From assembly GCF_028553745.1 (NCBI RefSeq), contig NZ_CP067129.1:2028501-2092500 (forward strand): a stretch of DNA of 64,000 nt. Direction: 5' to 3'. Origin of the DNA: Paracoccus seriniphilus. GTDB lineage: Bacteria; Pseudomonadota; Alphaproteobacteria; Rhodobacterales; Rhodobacteraceae. The notes beneath the pieces were generated by a model, which was not told the origin of the DNA, made no database searches, and saw nothing but the letters and a program-made list of their open reading frames with translations. The position numbers were made by a program, and so were the translations under genes. Positions 44,192 to 52,735 of the stretch are shown here, in pieces; within the stretch, counting starts at the first letter, position 1, and each line of letters starts with the position of its first letter.

Positions 44192-44267
44192 GGGGCCATA
44201 GCTCAGTTGGTAGAGCGCTTGAATGGCATTCAAGAGGTCAGGGGTTCGACTCCCCTTGGCTCCACCA
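44192..44267 (+). tRNA. tRNA-Ala (anticodon GGC)
   Basis: A complete 76-nt cloverleaf with encoded CCA. The acceptor GGGGCCA (44192-44198) pairs with TGGCTCC (44257-44263). The D arm is GCTCAGTTGGTAGAGC. The anticodon loop ATGGCAT gives GGC, and the T arm is AGGGGTTCGACTCCCCT. The accessory island starts 8 bp behind its 3' end, so this gene is the likely landmark for insertion. Confidence 0.97.
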
Positions 44268-44270
44268 AAT

Positions 44271-44275
44271 ATTCC
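44271..44275 (+). repeat. ATTCC target-site repeat, left copy
   Basis: Five bases ATTCC lie directly before the left inverted repeat of transposon unit 1. The same five bases follow the right end of unit 2 (52249-52253). Five-base target duplications are typical of Tn7-, Tn552- and Tn5053-type transposition. Confidence 0.65.
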
Positions 44276-44299
44276 TGAAAAGCACCAGATAGTTCTGCC
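44276..44299 (+). repeat. Left terminal inverted repeat of unit 1
   Basis: A 24-bp end starting TGAAAAGCACCAGATAGTTC and ending TGCC. The identical 24 bp opens units 2 and 3. Its reverse complement is similar to the right ends at 49979-50002 and 52225-52248. A second inverted motif, TTTGCCTCTG, follows at 44315-44324. Confidence 0.75.
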
Positions 44300-44434
44300 T
44301 TTATCGTCAGAGGGTTTGCCTCTGCCGCGCAGACGGGTGCTGTTTTCCCTACAAAAATCCATGCTGCCTCGATCACGCGCCCGTGCGTGTTGATTCCGTC
44401 GCGGCGCCTTCCCTGTCACACCCGAGAATGGCCC

Positions 44435-44974
44435 ATGAACAACCATTTCTTCGTCGTGACGGGCGGCCCAGGTGCGGGCAAAACCAGCCTGATCACCGAA
44501 CTCGCCCGCCGCGGCTTCCACACTGTACCCGAATCTGGCCGCACGATCATCCGCGAGGAGATGGCCAGCTGCGGAGCCGCCCTTCCGTGGGCGGATCGCA
44601 TGGCCTATGCCGAACGAATGCTGGAACGGGACCTGAGCGCCTACAGTGCCGCACAGGCGCTCTCAGACCCCGTGATCTTCGACCGGGGCATTCCCGACAT
44701 AATGGGCTACCTGACCCTCTGCGGCATCCCCGTGCCGCCCCACGTCGCCGCTACGGCCACGGCAGCCCGTTACAACGCCCGCGTCTTCCTGACACCCTAC
44801 TGGGACGAGATCTTCACACAAGACACCGAACGCACGCAGACCCGCACCGAGGCCGAAGCGACCTGCGCCGTCATGCGGGAAACCTACATCGCTCTCGGAT
44901 ACAAGATCACGGAGCTCCCGTGCACCGACATCGTATCACGCGCTGATTTTGTCTCTGCGCAACTAGCGCTCTGA
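44435..44974 (+). CDS. AAA-family ATPase (AAA_28-like), copy 1
   Basis: A 179-residue P-loop protein starting MNNHFFVVTGGPGAGKTSLI, with Walker A GGPGAGKT at residues 9-16. Later motifs are VPESGRTIIREEM, VIFDRGIPDIMGYL (Walker-B-like) and a C-terminal nucleotide-fold end. It resembles the small AAA_28/nucleoside-kinase-like ATPases of proteobacteria whose substrate is unknown. Two damaged copies sit at the same position behind the left ends of units 2 and 3, so it is a fixed part of the element. It does not look like TnsC: it is too short and lacks the ORC/Cdc6-type layout. Confidence 0.8.
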   Translation: MNNHFFVVTGGPGAGKTSLITELARRGFHTVPESGRTIIREEMASCGAALPWADRMAYAERMLERDLSAYSAAQALSDPVIFDRGIPDIMGYLTLCGIPVPPHVAATATAARYNARVFLTPYWDEIFTQDTERTQTRTEAEATCAVMRETYIALGYKITELPCTDIVSRADFVSAQLAL

Positions 44975-45159
44975 CCGGATTCTCCAGATGGACGGAGGAT
45001 CTACTGGAGCGGACAAACCGCGCAGCTCCCTCCTGCCTCCTACTACCTGAAGCCGACGGCCCTTACCGGACCTTCGCAACCGATGCGGCGGTAATCCCCC
45101 CCGATCTTAGGGGGCTGCGGAAGTAGAATTTTCTCGGCAGGATGAACGAGGAGATACCG

Positions 45160-45423
45160 ATGAAGAAGACACGTTTCACAGAAGCCCAGATCATGGGCGT
45201 GCTGCGCCAGATGGAAGGCGGCGTTCCTGCTGCCGAGTTGTGCCGTGAACATGGCATGAGCAGTGCCACGCTTTACAAATGGCGGGCCAAATATGGCGGT
45301 ATGGATGCGAGCCTGATCAGCGAGATGAAGGCGATGGCCGAGGAGAACCGCCGCCTGAAGCGTATGTTCGCTGATGTCAGCATGCAAAACGACCTGCTGA
45401 AGGAGGCGCTCGGAAAAAAATGA
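45160..45423 (+). CDS. IS3-family transposase OrfA
   Basis: An 87-residue protein from the ATG at 45160, behind GAGGAGAT. It has the helix-turn-helix head [19 protein letters not shown] ... [20 protein letters not shown] and a leucine-zipper tail ([19 protein letters not shown]), which is the DNA-binding subunit of IS3 transposase. It ends in AAAAAAA-TGA and overlaps orfB by 4 bp in the -1 frame. Confidence 0.93.
45414..45420 (+). promoter_or_regulatory. Probable -1 frameshift site of IS3
   Basis: Seven A residues lie directly before the TGA of orfA. Slippage by -1 here would enter the orfB frame and give the OrfAB fusion transposase, the normal IS3 mechanism. Confidence 0.7.
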
Positions 45424-45974
45424 AGCGGCCAGCTCAACGCCGAGAGTTGGCCGTGAAAGCGGTGGCGATGAAGGGCGTCAGCATCGCACTGGCGTGCCGG
45501 GCATTTGATGTCAGCGAGACCTGCTACCGATACAGCCCGAAGCTGGACGATGAGAACGAGCAGATCGCCGACCTGCTGCTTGGGCTGACGAAGGCGAAGA
45601 AGACCTGGGGCTTTGGCCTGTGCTTTCTCTACCTGCGCAATGTCCAGGGCCATGGCTGGAACCACAAGCGGGTCTACCGGATCTACCGCGAGCTGGAGCT
45701 GAACCTCAGGATCAAGCCGCGCAAACGGCTGAAACGGGAGAAGCCCGACGAGTTGGCCGTGCCAGAACAGCCGAACGAAGTCTGGTCCATGGCCTTCATG
45801 GCAGATCGCCTCGGGGACGGACGCCAGTTCCGGCTGCTGAATGTCCTGGACGACTTCAACCGTGAAGGGCTGGGTATCGAGGTCGACTTCTCGCTACCCG
45901 CGGAACGCGTCGTCAGGGCGCTGAACCAGATCATCGAATGGCGTGGTGCGCCTCGAACCATACGAGTCGACAAC

Positions 45975-51399: not shown

Positions 51400-51478
51400 G
51401 ATCTGATACCAGTGAAAGCAGGTCATGTTTGCGACAATACATGAAATTCATCCACCCCTTAAAAGCTGAGTTATCTAA

Positions 51479-52078
51479 GTGCACCCTGGAAGCCCAATCG
51501 ATGATCTTGACGTTAAGATCTCAGAATTCAAAACAAAATACGAAACCCGCAATCCCCCTCTAGCGTGGCCGATCAAGTCTGAGGAAGAAAGCACGCGGGT
51601 GTCCACTCTAAGGTGGTCAGACTTGAGCCCTCCCAGTGCCTTGGTTGATAGCTGGGCGACAAGAGTTGGGACGCTTTCCGTAATTTCCGCGCTTTTTGCG
51701 ATTGGACAACGAGAAGGTGCCGACATAATGGGGGACTCTCAAGTCATGTTGAGAATATTGGGTTTCATAGTATTACTCTCCTGTTTGGTCCCTCTCTGGA
51801 ACTACCACGTGCTCGTAAAGGAAGTGGGTAACGACAAGAACAAGGATGGATTGCTGAAAGATGAGATAAGAGTGGGCGTAGCGTATACTATTGTTATCCT
51901 GATGGCTGCCGGCCCGTTCCTAATCTTCTGGCCGGGCTTCCAAGTGCTTATAAACTTTGTGCTGTCACCACAGGGGCGCTTGGTGACCGTATTATTGATC
52001 CCGCTCGGAATGATATTTGCGCTATTATTGGGGAGACTGCAGCGCAAACGCTCTAGATCGAAAGCCAGCGCGCGCTGA
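51479..52078 (+). CDS. Membrane protein of unknown function (transposon cargo)
   Basis: A 199-residue protein with a soluble N-terminus of about 55 residues and four hydrophobic segments (about residues 65-75, 88-110, 133-158 and 165-188). It ends in a basic tail (RLQRKRSRSKASAR). It starts with GTG and no strong ribosome site is seen, so an inner start is possible. Base composition is clearly more AT-rich than the surrounding chromosome, which suggests recent transfer. I do not recognise the family. Position at the cargo end of a TniQ-type element hints at a host-benefit or defence gene, but nothing in the sequence shows this. Confidence 0.65.
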   Translation: MHPGSPIDDLDVKISEFKTKYETRNPPLAWPIKSEEESTRVSTLRWSDLSPPSALVDSWATRVGTLSVISALFAIGQREGADIMGDSQVMLRILGFIVLLSCLVPLWNYHVLVKEVGNDKNKDGLLKDEIRVGVAYTIVILMAAGPFLIFWPGFQVLINFVLSPQGRLVTVLLIPLGMIFALLLGRLQRKRSRSKASAR

Positions 52079-52097
52079 CTGTTTTACCAGATTAAGA

Positions 52098-52123
52098 AGG
52101 CCGACCACTGTGTCGGCTTTTTT
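52098..52123 (+). terminator. Terminator in the right end of unit 2
   Basis: GCCGAC pairs with GTCGGC around CACTGT and is followed by a TTTTTT run (52118-52123). It is the counterpart of the hairpin behind tniQ in unit 1. Confidence 0.75.
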
Positions 52124-52134
52124 CATATCTTCCG

Positions 52135-52236
52135 AGAGGCAACCTTATCTAACGAAAAAGGCAACTACAGTTCGGCATCGAGACTTCCGAGCACTGAATT
52201 TAAAAGGAAATTTTGACGCTCAGAGGCAAAACTATG
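52135..52236 (+). repeat. Right-end motif array of unit 2
   Basis: AGAGGCAACCTTATC (from 52135), AAAAAGGCAACTACAG (from 52155) and CAGAGGCAAAACTATG (from 52221) lie in the same direction and with nearly the same spacing as in unit 1. Confidence 0.6.
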
Positions 52237-52248
52237 TGCCCCTTCCCA
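52225..52248 (-). repeat. Right terminal inverted repeat of unit 2
   Basis: On the minus strand it begins TGGGAAGGGGCACATAGTTT and ends TGCC, similar to the other ends. Confidence 0.7.
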
Positions 52249-52253
52249 ATTCC
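52249..52253 (+). repeat. ATTCC target-site repeat, right copy
   Basis: ATTCC follows directly behind the right end of unit 2 and precedes the left end of unit 3, matching the five bases before unit 1 (44271-44275). Confidence 0.65.
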
Positions 52254-52735
52254 TGAAAAGCACCAGATAGTTCTGCCTTTCTCGTCAGGGGATTTGCCTC
52301 TGCCGCGCAGACGGGTACTGTTTTCCCTACGAAAATCCATGCTGCTTTGATCCGCGCCCGTGGCGTGTCGATCGCTTCGCAGCGCTTTCCCCTGTCAAGT
52401 CCGAGGATGGCCCATGAGTGACCATTTCTTCGTCGTGACGGGCGGTCCCGGTGCGGGCAAGACCAGCCTGATCACCGAGCTCGCCCGTCGCGGCTTGCAT
52501 AAGGTCCCCGAATCCGGCCGCGCGATCATCTGCGAGGAGATGCAGAGCGGCGGAGACGCCCTCCCCTGGGCGGACCGCATGGCCTATGCCGAACGGATGT
52601 CGGGGCGGGCCCGTGCGCCTACAGCGCCGCACAGACGCTCTCAGGCCCCATAATCTTCGGTCTGGGCATTCCTGACAGCCTGCATGACCCGCCCCTCTGC
52701 GGCCTCCCCGTGCCGCCCCACGTCGCCACAGCAGC
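52254..52735 (+). mobile_element. TniQ-type transposon unit 3 (left-end remnant)
   Basis: It begins with the same 24-bp left end (52254-52277) and upstream region as units 1 and 2, followed by a broken ATPase copy. Recognisable similarity ends near 52735. No right end with the motif GGCA-AACT...CTTCCCA was found downstream, so the rest of this unit has been deleted. Confidence 0.6.
52414..52735 (+). pseudogene. AAA-family ATPase, copy 3, frameshifted
   Basis: The first 60 or so codons match copies 1 and 2 (MSDHFFVVTGGPGAGKTSLI). From about 52595 small insertions and deletions break the frame, though DNA similarity to copy 1 continues through GTGCCGCCCCACGTCGCC. It is more diverged than copy 2 and clearly not functional. 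Confidence 0.82.

Follow-up and report, generated by a model that had tools for sequence, protein, structure and literature searches.

The 64,000-nucleotide stretch of Paracoccus seriniphilus DNA analysed here (the window; genome G000, genome size 4.26 Mb, contig C1, positions 2028501–2092500) contains a stack of three decayed Tn7-like transposons of one family behind a transfer RNA (tRNA) gene, tRNA-Ala(GGC). Taken as a whole, the data are very probably best explained by a dead stack in a family whose living members are steered behind the tRNA gene by a TniQ protein and insert there repeatedly at the tRNA side. In such a mechanism a TnsA, TnsB and TnsC cut-and-paste machinery would be directed by a single TniQ/TnsD-type protein, which would bind the 3' half of the tRNA-Ala(GGC) gene as double-stranded DNA, or of tRNA-Pro(CGG) in a sister branch. 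The element would insert with its left end first, 8–11 bp behind the CCA, and duplicate 5 bp. Since the tRNA gene stays whole, the site would be reusable; each newcomer would enter between the tRNA and the older copies, and stacks would grow at the tRNA and decay outward. At the level of sequence comparison the machinery, the ends, the fixed distance and orientation, the 5-bp duplications, the stacking and the order of decay in the window are all evident. Furthermore, TniQ may recognise its target through a row of winged-helix modules, and target immunity appears to be weak or absent.

The tRNA-Ala(GGC) gene, the attachment site, lies at 44192..44267 on the plus strand (ARAGORN). A first-pass annotation of this DNA had described three units with one and the same 24-bp end, and indeed the 24-mer TGAAAAGCACCAGATAGTTCTGCC occurs exactly at 44276, 50008 and 52254, at the left ends of the three units, and nowhere else in the 4.26-Mb genome when up to three mismatches are allowed. 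Together with an adjoining repeat common to the units it forms left ends at 44276..44413 (unit 1), 50008..50145 (unit 2) and 52254..52391 (unit 3), all on the plus strand. Over 160 bases the left end of unit 3 agrees with that of unit 2 in 154, and that of unit 1 shares 141 with either of them. The first left end starts 8 bp past the tRNA gene, and the last five of these 8 bp (ATTCC, 44271..44275) are the target-site copy ahead of it. Right ends were found where they had been annotated, at 49979..50002 for unit 1 and at 52225..52248 for unit 2, again on the plus strand. The two disagree in 4 of the last 24 bases (89 of 120 aligned bases are identical), and the second ends in the same 24 bases as loci L160, L162, L163 and L178, which belong to type B of three TniQ types, A, B and C. 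The five-base spacers noted before are present at both junctions, CCCTG (50003..50007) between the right end of unit 1 and the left end of unit 2, and ATTCC (52249..52253) between the right end of unit 2 and the left end of unit 3. The ends in the window, like those of an intact relative, have TG..CA termini.

Each unit opens with a copy of an AAA_28 gene on the plus strand, which is intact in unit 1 (44438..44974; PF13521, E 2.9e-42) and truncated in units 2 (50168..50491) and 3 (52414..52736, a broken fragment). In unit 1 an IS3-family element (45090..47914; inverted-repeat arms, HTH_Tnp_1), within which an IS110-family transposase gene lies on the minus strand (46211..47533; PF02371, PF01548), occupies the space of the missing cargo and of tnsA, tnsB and the greater part of tnsC. 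All that remains of tnsC is its final 43 codons (codons 342–384; 47916..48044, plus strand; 93% identity to tnsC of the intact locus L077), followed by an open type A tniQ frame of 597 amino acids (48044..49837, plus strand). This is the tniQ gene proposed in the first-pass annotation, and it matches the Pfam TniQ family (PF06527) with E 1.5e-16; its product is 88% identical to that of L077 and 91% to that of L076 (range 88–96% across L077, L076 and L138). Unit 2 holds a 300-amino-acid reading frame (50497..51399, plus strand) in which the C-terminal half of a TniQ of type B is recognisable. Its identity to that half is 87–94% in nine type B loci (L159, L160, L162, L163, with a broken tniQ frame, L165, L168, L178, L179 and L183), compared to only about 27% for type A. 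Downstream follows a gene for a 199-amino-acid putative membrane protein (51479..52078, plus strand; the membrane label comes from reading the sequence), and an 81% identical gene lies between type B tniQ and the right end in Pseudosulfitobacter (L183). Because the 300-amino-acid frame, the 199-amino-acid gene and the right end all match type B loci, unit 2 is, as judged from these matches, what is left of a type B element, and unit 1 derives from one of type A. For unit 3 no right end was found and it consists of a left end and the AAA_28 fragment only. Decay is most advanced in unit 3, less so in unit 2 and least in unit 1, next to the tRNA, with its open tniQ. Insertion of every new copy directly at the tRNA, ahead of those already present, would produce such a gradient.

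The identification as decayed Tn7-like elements is borne out by relatives which carry tnsA, tnsB, tnsC/tniB and tniQ between the same ends as in the window. In Pseudoroseicyclus tamaricis (G138, L077 = L157) the order is tRNA-Ala(GGC), 9 bp, left end, AAA_28, cargo, tnsA-tnsB-tnsC-tniQ and right end, with CCCTT on both sides of the element. An intact relative directly behind tRNA-Ala, which the first-pass annotation had proposed to look for, does therefore exist. Its cargo codes, at 10381–11928 of locus L077, for a GajB-like helicase (PADLOC, E 1.2e-152), likely an anti-phage gene. Locus L076 reads tnsA-tnsB-tnsC-tniQ-right end, then 5 bp, a further left end and AAA_28. In TnsB of L077 the rve match is below the cut-off and Mu-transpos_C just above it. 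Residues D292, D387 and E423 are invariant in 11 of 11 sequences and probably form the catalytic triad, and a TnsB sequence profile finds solved TnsB structures, with that of Tn6677 among the best (E 1.8e-34). TnsA of L077 matches PF08722 with E 5.9e-6 (27.2 bits, cut-off 26.5), and most related loci have a match to it next to tnsB; the relatives carry tnsA and tnsB as two separate, adjacent genes. TnsC/TniB of L077 matches PF05621 (E 2.3e-18). PF06527 is present in the window and its relatives, and the TniQ fold matches TniQ and TnsD structures (VIA-align); a TniQ sequence profile gave no match among the solved structures.

A scan of named genomes with a TnsB alignment yielded 32 loci, 31 of them with at least 50% identity in the best segment and nearly all in named Rhodobacterales; the other one is an unrelated Rhodoferax match at 27%. 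One of the records that carry the element, L166 (JAFKDC010000053.1), is labelled Enemella evansiae (Actinomycetota), and this label is probably wrong. TnsB matches of at least 50% identity over at least one third of the query were present in 11 of 125 Paracoccus genomes, with a short piece in a twelfth, G040. As the window's own genome has no TnsB match above 43% identity, the copies in the window seem to be without a cognate transposase at home.

The same searches bear on two other possible origins. PADLOC matches TniQ, TnsB and TnsC to models named for transposons linked to CRISPR (clustered regularly interspaced short palindromic repeats), which share such machinery, and some CRISPR-linked Tn7-like elements attach at tRNA genes, according to the excerpts of PMC11406308. 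The units might then be relics of a CRISPR-guided element that lost its Cas genes and tRNA guide. However, in agreement with the first-pass annotation, no Cas effector match was found among four window proteins or the ten proteins of the intact L077 element, and no short direct repeats in the latter. Moreover, the TniQ is long and has DNA-binding modules of its own, as predicted, and the distance to the tRNA is 8–11 bp, compared to mostly 50–60 bp from the protospacer in CRISPR-linked elements (excerpts of PMC8649781). We consider such a relic highly improbable. Integrase-type islands are frequent at tRNA 3' ends, and the region might be an island that used this end as its att site, with TniQ as a passenger. 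No integrase was found with Pfam among seven window and ten L077 proteins, as had been noted before, and the repeats listed for 43000–54000 include no direct copy of the 3' end of the tRNA. The intact relatives, with 5-bp duplications, TG..CA ends and tnsABC-tniQ, contradict an integrase island, to which we give practically no credence.

The insertion sites of the family were followed by means of its left ends. A query without tRNA sequence detected a left end in 15 Paracoccus genomes besides that of the window (121 genomes; match start at query base 1–29). In 12 of the 15 it stands 8–10 bp behind a tRNA gene, seven times tRNA-Ala(GGC) and five times tRNA-Pro(CGG), and in G053, G065 and G085 it is behind neither; for G078 the first 28 bases were unmatched and the start is extrapolated. 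The ends are thus tied to a tRNA also in other genomes, as the first-pass annotation had supposed, but tRNA-Ala(GGC) is not the sole target. Over all loci collected we counted 71 distinct left ends with a model score of at least 16. Twenty-nine lie behind tRNA-Ala(GGC) at 8–11 bp, eight behind tRNA-Pro(CGG) at 9 bp and one behind tRNA-Ala(CGC) at 9 bp, i.e. 38 of 71 at 8–11 bp behind three tRNA species, and 23 are located 4–5 bp past a right end. Fifteen of the tRNA-side cases came only from a query containing the tRNA and add range, no independent support. In all 13 places compared the genes are oriented away from the tRNA, a count made without a separate search for right ends facing the tRNA. 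On these sequences, tRNA-Pro(CGG) appears to be the target of a sister branch of the family. The tRNA-Ala(CGC) case, a third tRNA species, comes from Pseudodonghicola xiamenensis (L250) and has a diverged left end with a score of 20.7.

Stacking is not peculiar to the window. Among 34 right ends examined (score about 50 or more) 24 are followed 4–5 bp on by a left end, one of which scores only 10.9, and ten are not; these stacks suggest that target immunity is weak. We compared the flanks of 25 elements with a tRNA-side left end and both 5-mers readable, some of which have their ends on different contigs and are paired only by the shared genome. In 14 of the 25 the two 5-mers are equal, where about 0.02 of 25 would be expected by chance: CCCTT (G138 and G122), TCCCT (Celeribacter), CCGAG (G090), CCCGA (G116), CCGGT (G007), CCCGG (G048), GCTTT (Rhodovulum kholense), CCTAT (Sagittula), CCCTC (Mesobaculum), CTTCA (Roseivivax), CTCTT (Pseudodonghicola xiamenensis), TCCTT (the metagenome-assembled genome of L178) and CAAAC (Fluviibacterium). 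No left end follows the right-hand copy of the 5-mer in Fluviibacterium. In G007 and Rhodovulum kholense CCGGT and GCTTT, respectively, stand at the tRNA and again after two right ends. A survey for empty sites covered 30 Paracoccus loci fetched by neighbour gene and tRNA, and 14 of them had tRNA-Ala(GGC), with a left end behind three and none behind eleven. The ten bases ahead of the left end in G045 continue uninterrupted in the empty locus L202, and L220 has ATTCC within one base of its position in the window. A sister strain or an empty site with exactly the window's flank, reading straight through ATTCC as the first-pass annotation had envisaged, was not found among the loci compared.

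A clue to the targeting signal comes from Thioclava sp. SK-1, in which a type B element with GGCGT on both sides is located away from any tRNA found. Of the 45 bp before this insertion, 28 positions match the consensus of the tRNA-Ala 3' part, 29 its best variant and 27 tRNA-Pro. The match holds only at a gap of 9, as at most real tRNAs, and its level is reached by about 2e-5 of background positions. Since the acceptor end is not shared between the Thioclava site and the tRNA targets, the signal would be expected from the anticodon stem to the T-arm, about 25–50 bp from the insertion, pointing to this part of the tRNA gene as the probable targeting signal. The proposed TniQ recognition core in the window, CAAGAGGTCAGGGGTTCGA (44231..44249, plus strand), is an exact match of CARGRGSTCRGVRGTTCGA. 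In the window genome this motif occurs exactly twice, in tRNA-Ala(GGC) and tRNA-Pro(CGG); with one mismatch it is found at one place, outside a tRNA, and with two mismatches at 11 places, nine of them in other tRNA genes. In the collected loci, which were fetched for the element so that the counts are biased, it is present in 50 of 50 tRNA-Ala(GGC), 9 of 9 tRNA-Pro(CGG), 3 of 5 tRNA-Arg(ACG), 0 of 3 tRNA-Ala(CGC) and none of the other tRNA species seen. Outside tRNA genes, the Thioclava site and a tRNA-Ala truncated by the end of its contig were the only places where it was met.

Several observations weigh against the interpretation given so far. Ten of the 71 left ends are at neither a tRNA nor a right end, and besides the Thioclava site the other nine non-tRNA left ends show nothing comparable to a tRNA target (best 20 of 45, p 0.017). 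The core motif was built from the targets themselves, and what counts is its rarity elsewhere. It is neither necessary nor sufficient: all three copies of tRNA-Ala(CGC) lack it, and yet a diverged left end stands behind one of them (L250), while the tRNA-Arg(ACG) of Fluviibacterium has the core and no left end behind it. Finally, the flanking 5-mers are unequal in 11 of the 25 elements, namely unit 1 of the window (ATTCC/CCCTG), G045 (other contig), G257, Tritonibacter mobilis F1926, G107, G371, G062 and the genomes of L163, L165, L167 and L179. For these, recombination within stacks or movement of blocks is needed.

In principle, three units could also result from duplication of one inserted element by unequal homologous recombination. 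The unequal flanks, including those of unit 1, would be in line with this, and the left ends, with 141–154 of 160 bases in common, are similar enough to recombine. However, units 1 and 2 are not copies of one another: unit 2 has another TniQ lineage, another right end and an extra gene. In addition, the stacks of G007 and Rhodovulum kholense repeat the tRNA-side 5-mer at each junction read, as repeated insertion predicts. Duplication is therefore unlikely. The repeated insertion put forward in the first-pass annotation holds in so far as stacking is family-wide, though it was not one element that was repeated. A more serious alternative for the window is that units 1 and 2 entered as one composite, from the left end of unit 1 to the right end of unit 2, with the CCCTG junction inside. 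The 5-mers around unit 1 do not match, and those before its left end and after the right end of unit 2 do (ATTCC), as a target duplication would give. Furthermore, Tritonibacter mobilis F1926 (L190, 25446–25450) likewise has CCCTG where a type A right end meets a left end. On the other hand, a donor stack that recombined with a resident one would look no different, and many flanks in the family read CCCTN (CCCTT, CCCTC), so that the shared CCCTG may be chance. We regard the composite as a real possibility, though one that falls short of an even chance. Repeated insertion at the tRNA side remains our preferred explanation for the family, and for the window's ATTCC/CCCTG/ATTCC either entry of the two units as one block or recombination between stacks would fit.

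The three TniQ types form separate deep clades in a TniQ tree obtained by a quick method. In trees of TnsB and TnsC (18 labelled rows per gene, with some forks weakly supported) the type labels need 6 and 7 changes, respectively, compared to 2 for a clean split. TnsB of type A, B and C elements is 70–96% identical to that of L077 (82–96% except L168, L173 and L183), whereas TniQ identity between types is only 33–40%. Right ends were exchanged as well: L167 combines type A with a B right end, and in L168 and L179, both of type B, the right ends are A-like. All three types occur behind tRNA-Ala(GGC), A in the window, G138 and Rhodovulum, B in Celeribacter and Sagittula, and C in G257. Judged from these comparisons, closely related transposases have swapped partners among three TniQ lineages, and the target tRNA has stayed the same. 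TniQ is about 600 amino acids long and has a row of predicted MerR/excisionase-like winged-helix modules. Between the window TniQ and four type B proteins the mean identity is 0.41–0.46 in bins over residues 1–225 and 0.24–0.30 over residues 301–597. It is a tentative idea, to which we lend limited confidence, that about five C-terminal winged-helix modules read one part of the tRNA gene after another between anticodon stem and T-arm, and that deeply split lineages reading the same tRNA were swapped in tRNA-side stacks, which would act as recombination nurseries. If true, a transposon without CRISPR would choose its target by a modular protein code.

The AAA_28 gene is a companion of many left ends. 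Twenty-two intact copies start 159–161 bp from a left end, and they are under constraint, with a median ratio of nonsynonymous to synonymous substitutions (dN/dS) of 0.24 (range 0.14–0.52; 231 pairs). In the 125 Paracoccus genomes copies of at least 68% identity occur only at left-end loci and most homologues of lower identity away from left ends; exceptions are found in G078, whose tRNA-Ala site has a broken copy of 51–54%, and in G114, with one of 43% behind a left-like end. No match was found in Celeribacter L168 and in six of eight tRNA-Pro loci. Our guess is that AAA_28 is conserved cargo or a regulator and not part of the core machinery. Paracoccus genomes with a 52–60% homologue were considered as further members and rejected, as no left end with a score of at least 16 precedes the gene. 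One of them, G002, has a tRNA-Arg(ACG) at about the right distance and no recognisable end.

Related elements were encountered in other settings. Another tandem pair of related Tn7-like elements is present in the window genome (C1, 96.4–129.5 kb; L297, L153, L154), with a TnsB 38% identical to the L077 protein and copies 97.7% identical to each other over 4.4 kb. The first end of this pair lies 10 bp behind tRNA-Pro(CGG), GACTT stands ahead of both copies of that end, and the tns genes face the tRNA, opposite to the window family. Left-like ends without a tRNA were seen in L068, L069, L071, L074, L285 and L249, and three contigs of such ends (L291, L293, L294) carry elements of a sister group with TnsB 36–39% identical to L077. 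On a 1.2-Mb replicon of Tritonibacter mobilis A3R06 (L228 14744, L189 25040) an element with GCATT on both sides sits 150 bp inside an older left end, not at a tRNA; the joined flanks gave no clean empty copy of the site. The two core-bearing tRNA-Arg(ACG) genes other than that of Fluviibacterium adjoin machinery of distant relatives in the same orientation. In L093 (G349) the tRNA is about 1 kb before tnsB (35%), and in L047 (G271) part of a TniQ (32%) follows the tRNA, 9 bp behind which a sequence resembling an end starts with TG. Both loci were fetched for that machinery, and the link to tRNA-Arg(ACG) is a lead only.

To our knowledge, site finding by TnsD/TniQ proteins is understood in detail for few targets only. 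With three TniQ lineages that share one tRNA, a sister branch that uses a different one and closely related transposases throughout, the family forms a natural set, and the locus is a natural test case for target choice by such elements. The ectopic insertion points to the bases that count, and the DNA-reading part of TniQ can be tested by swapping. The stacks, in turn, lend themselves to studying the apparent failure of target immunity at an attachment site. Positions downstream of tRNA genes have been named as safe sites for Tn7-like transposons (Benler et al. 2021, PMC8649781, excerpts); the word start "rhodobacter" is absent from its main text, and the excerpts name neither tRNA-Ala, tRNA-Pro nor stacks. 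In the open-licence literature we found no account of Tn7-like elements at tRNA-Ala or tRNA-Pro or in Paracoccus or Roseobacter. Tn7-like and Roseobacter are both mentioned in PMC3478194, and an earlier description may exist.

Compared with known systems, the family resembles Tn7, which inserts behind glmS, in its separate TnsA, TnsB and TnsC with a TniQ-family target protein, the 5-bp duplication, the single orientation and a conserved target gene left intact (in part from excerpts of PMC10293859, in part from general knowledge). It differs from Tn7 in its tRNA target, in a TniQ with a row of MerR/excisionase-like modules, in the frequent head-to-tail stacks and in the AAA_28 gene at many left ends. 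For type I-B2 and I-D CRISPR-linked Tn7-like elements, targeting of tRNA genes by TniQ/TnsD is established, and in this TnsD branch (e.g. CyCAST at tRNA-Leu) a TniQ-family protein likewise sends the element behind a tRNA gene (excerpts of PMC10293859 and PMC11406308). According to the same excerpts, TnsA and TnsB are fused in those elements, which also have a CRISPR system and an additional TniQ, and the insertion point of CyCAST is about 30–33 nucleotides behind the tRNA. Here tnsA and tnsB are separate, the distance is 8–11 bp and the one intact element that was screened showed no CRISPR. With type I-F3 (Tn6677 and its kin) the family shares a TnsB that finds this group among its best solved matches, as well as the TniQ fold; it differs in that no Cascade was seen and that its TniQ, of about 600 amino acids, has a predicted DNA-binding part of its own. 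Tn5053/TniABQ elements are without TnsA, whereas the relatives of the window have it; Tn5053/TniABQ elements also carry a resolvase gene and target res sites, and the sites met here are tRNA genes. Summarizing, we file the family as a Tn7-like transposon, new in its target pair, spacing, stacking, TniQ exchange and AAA_28 companion.

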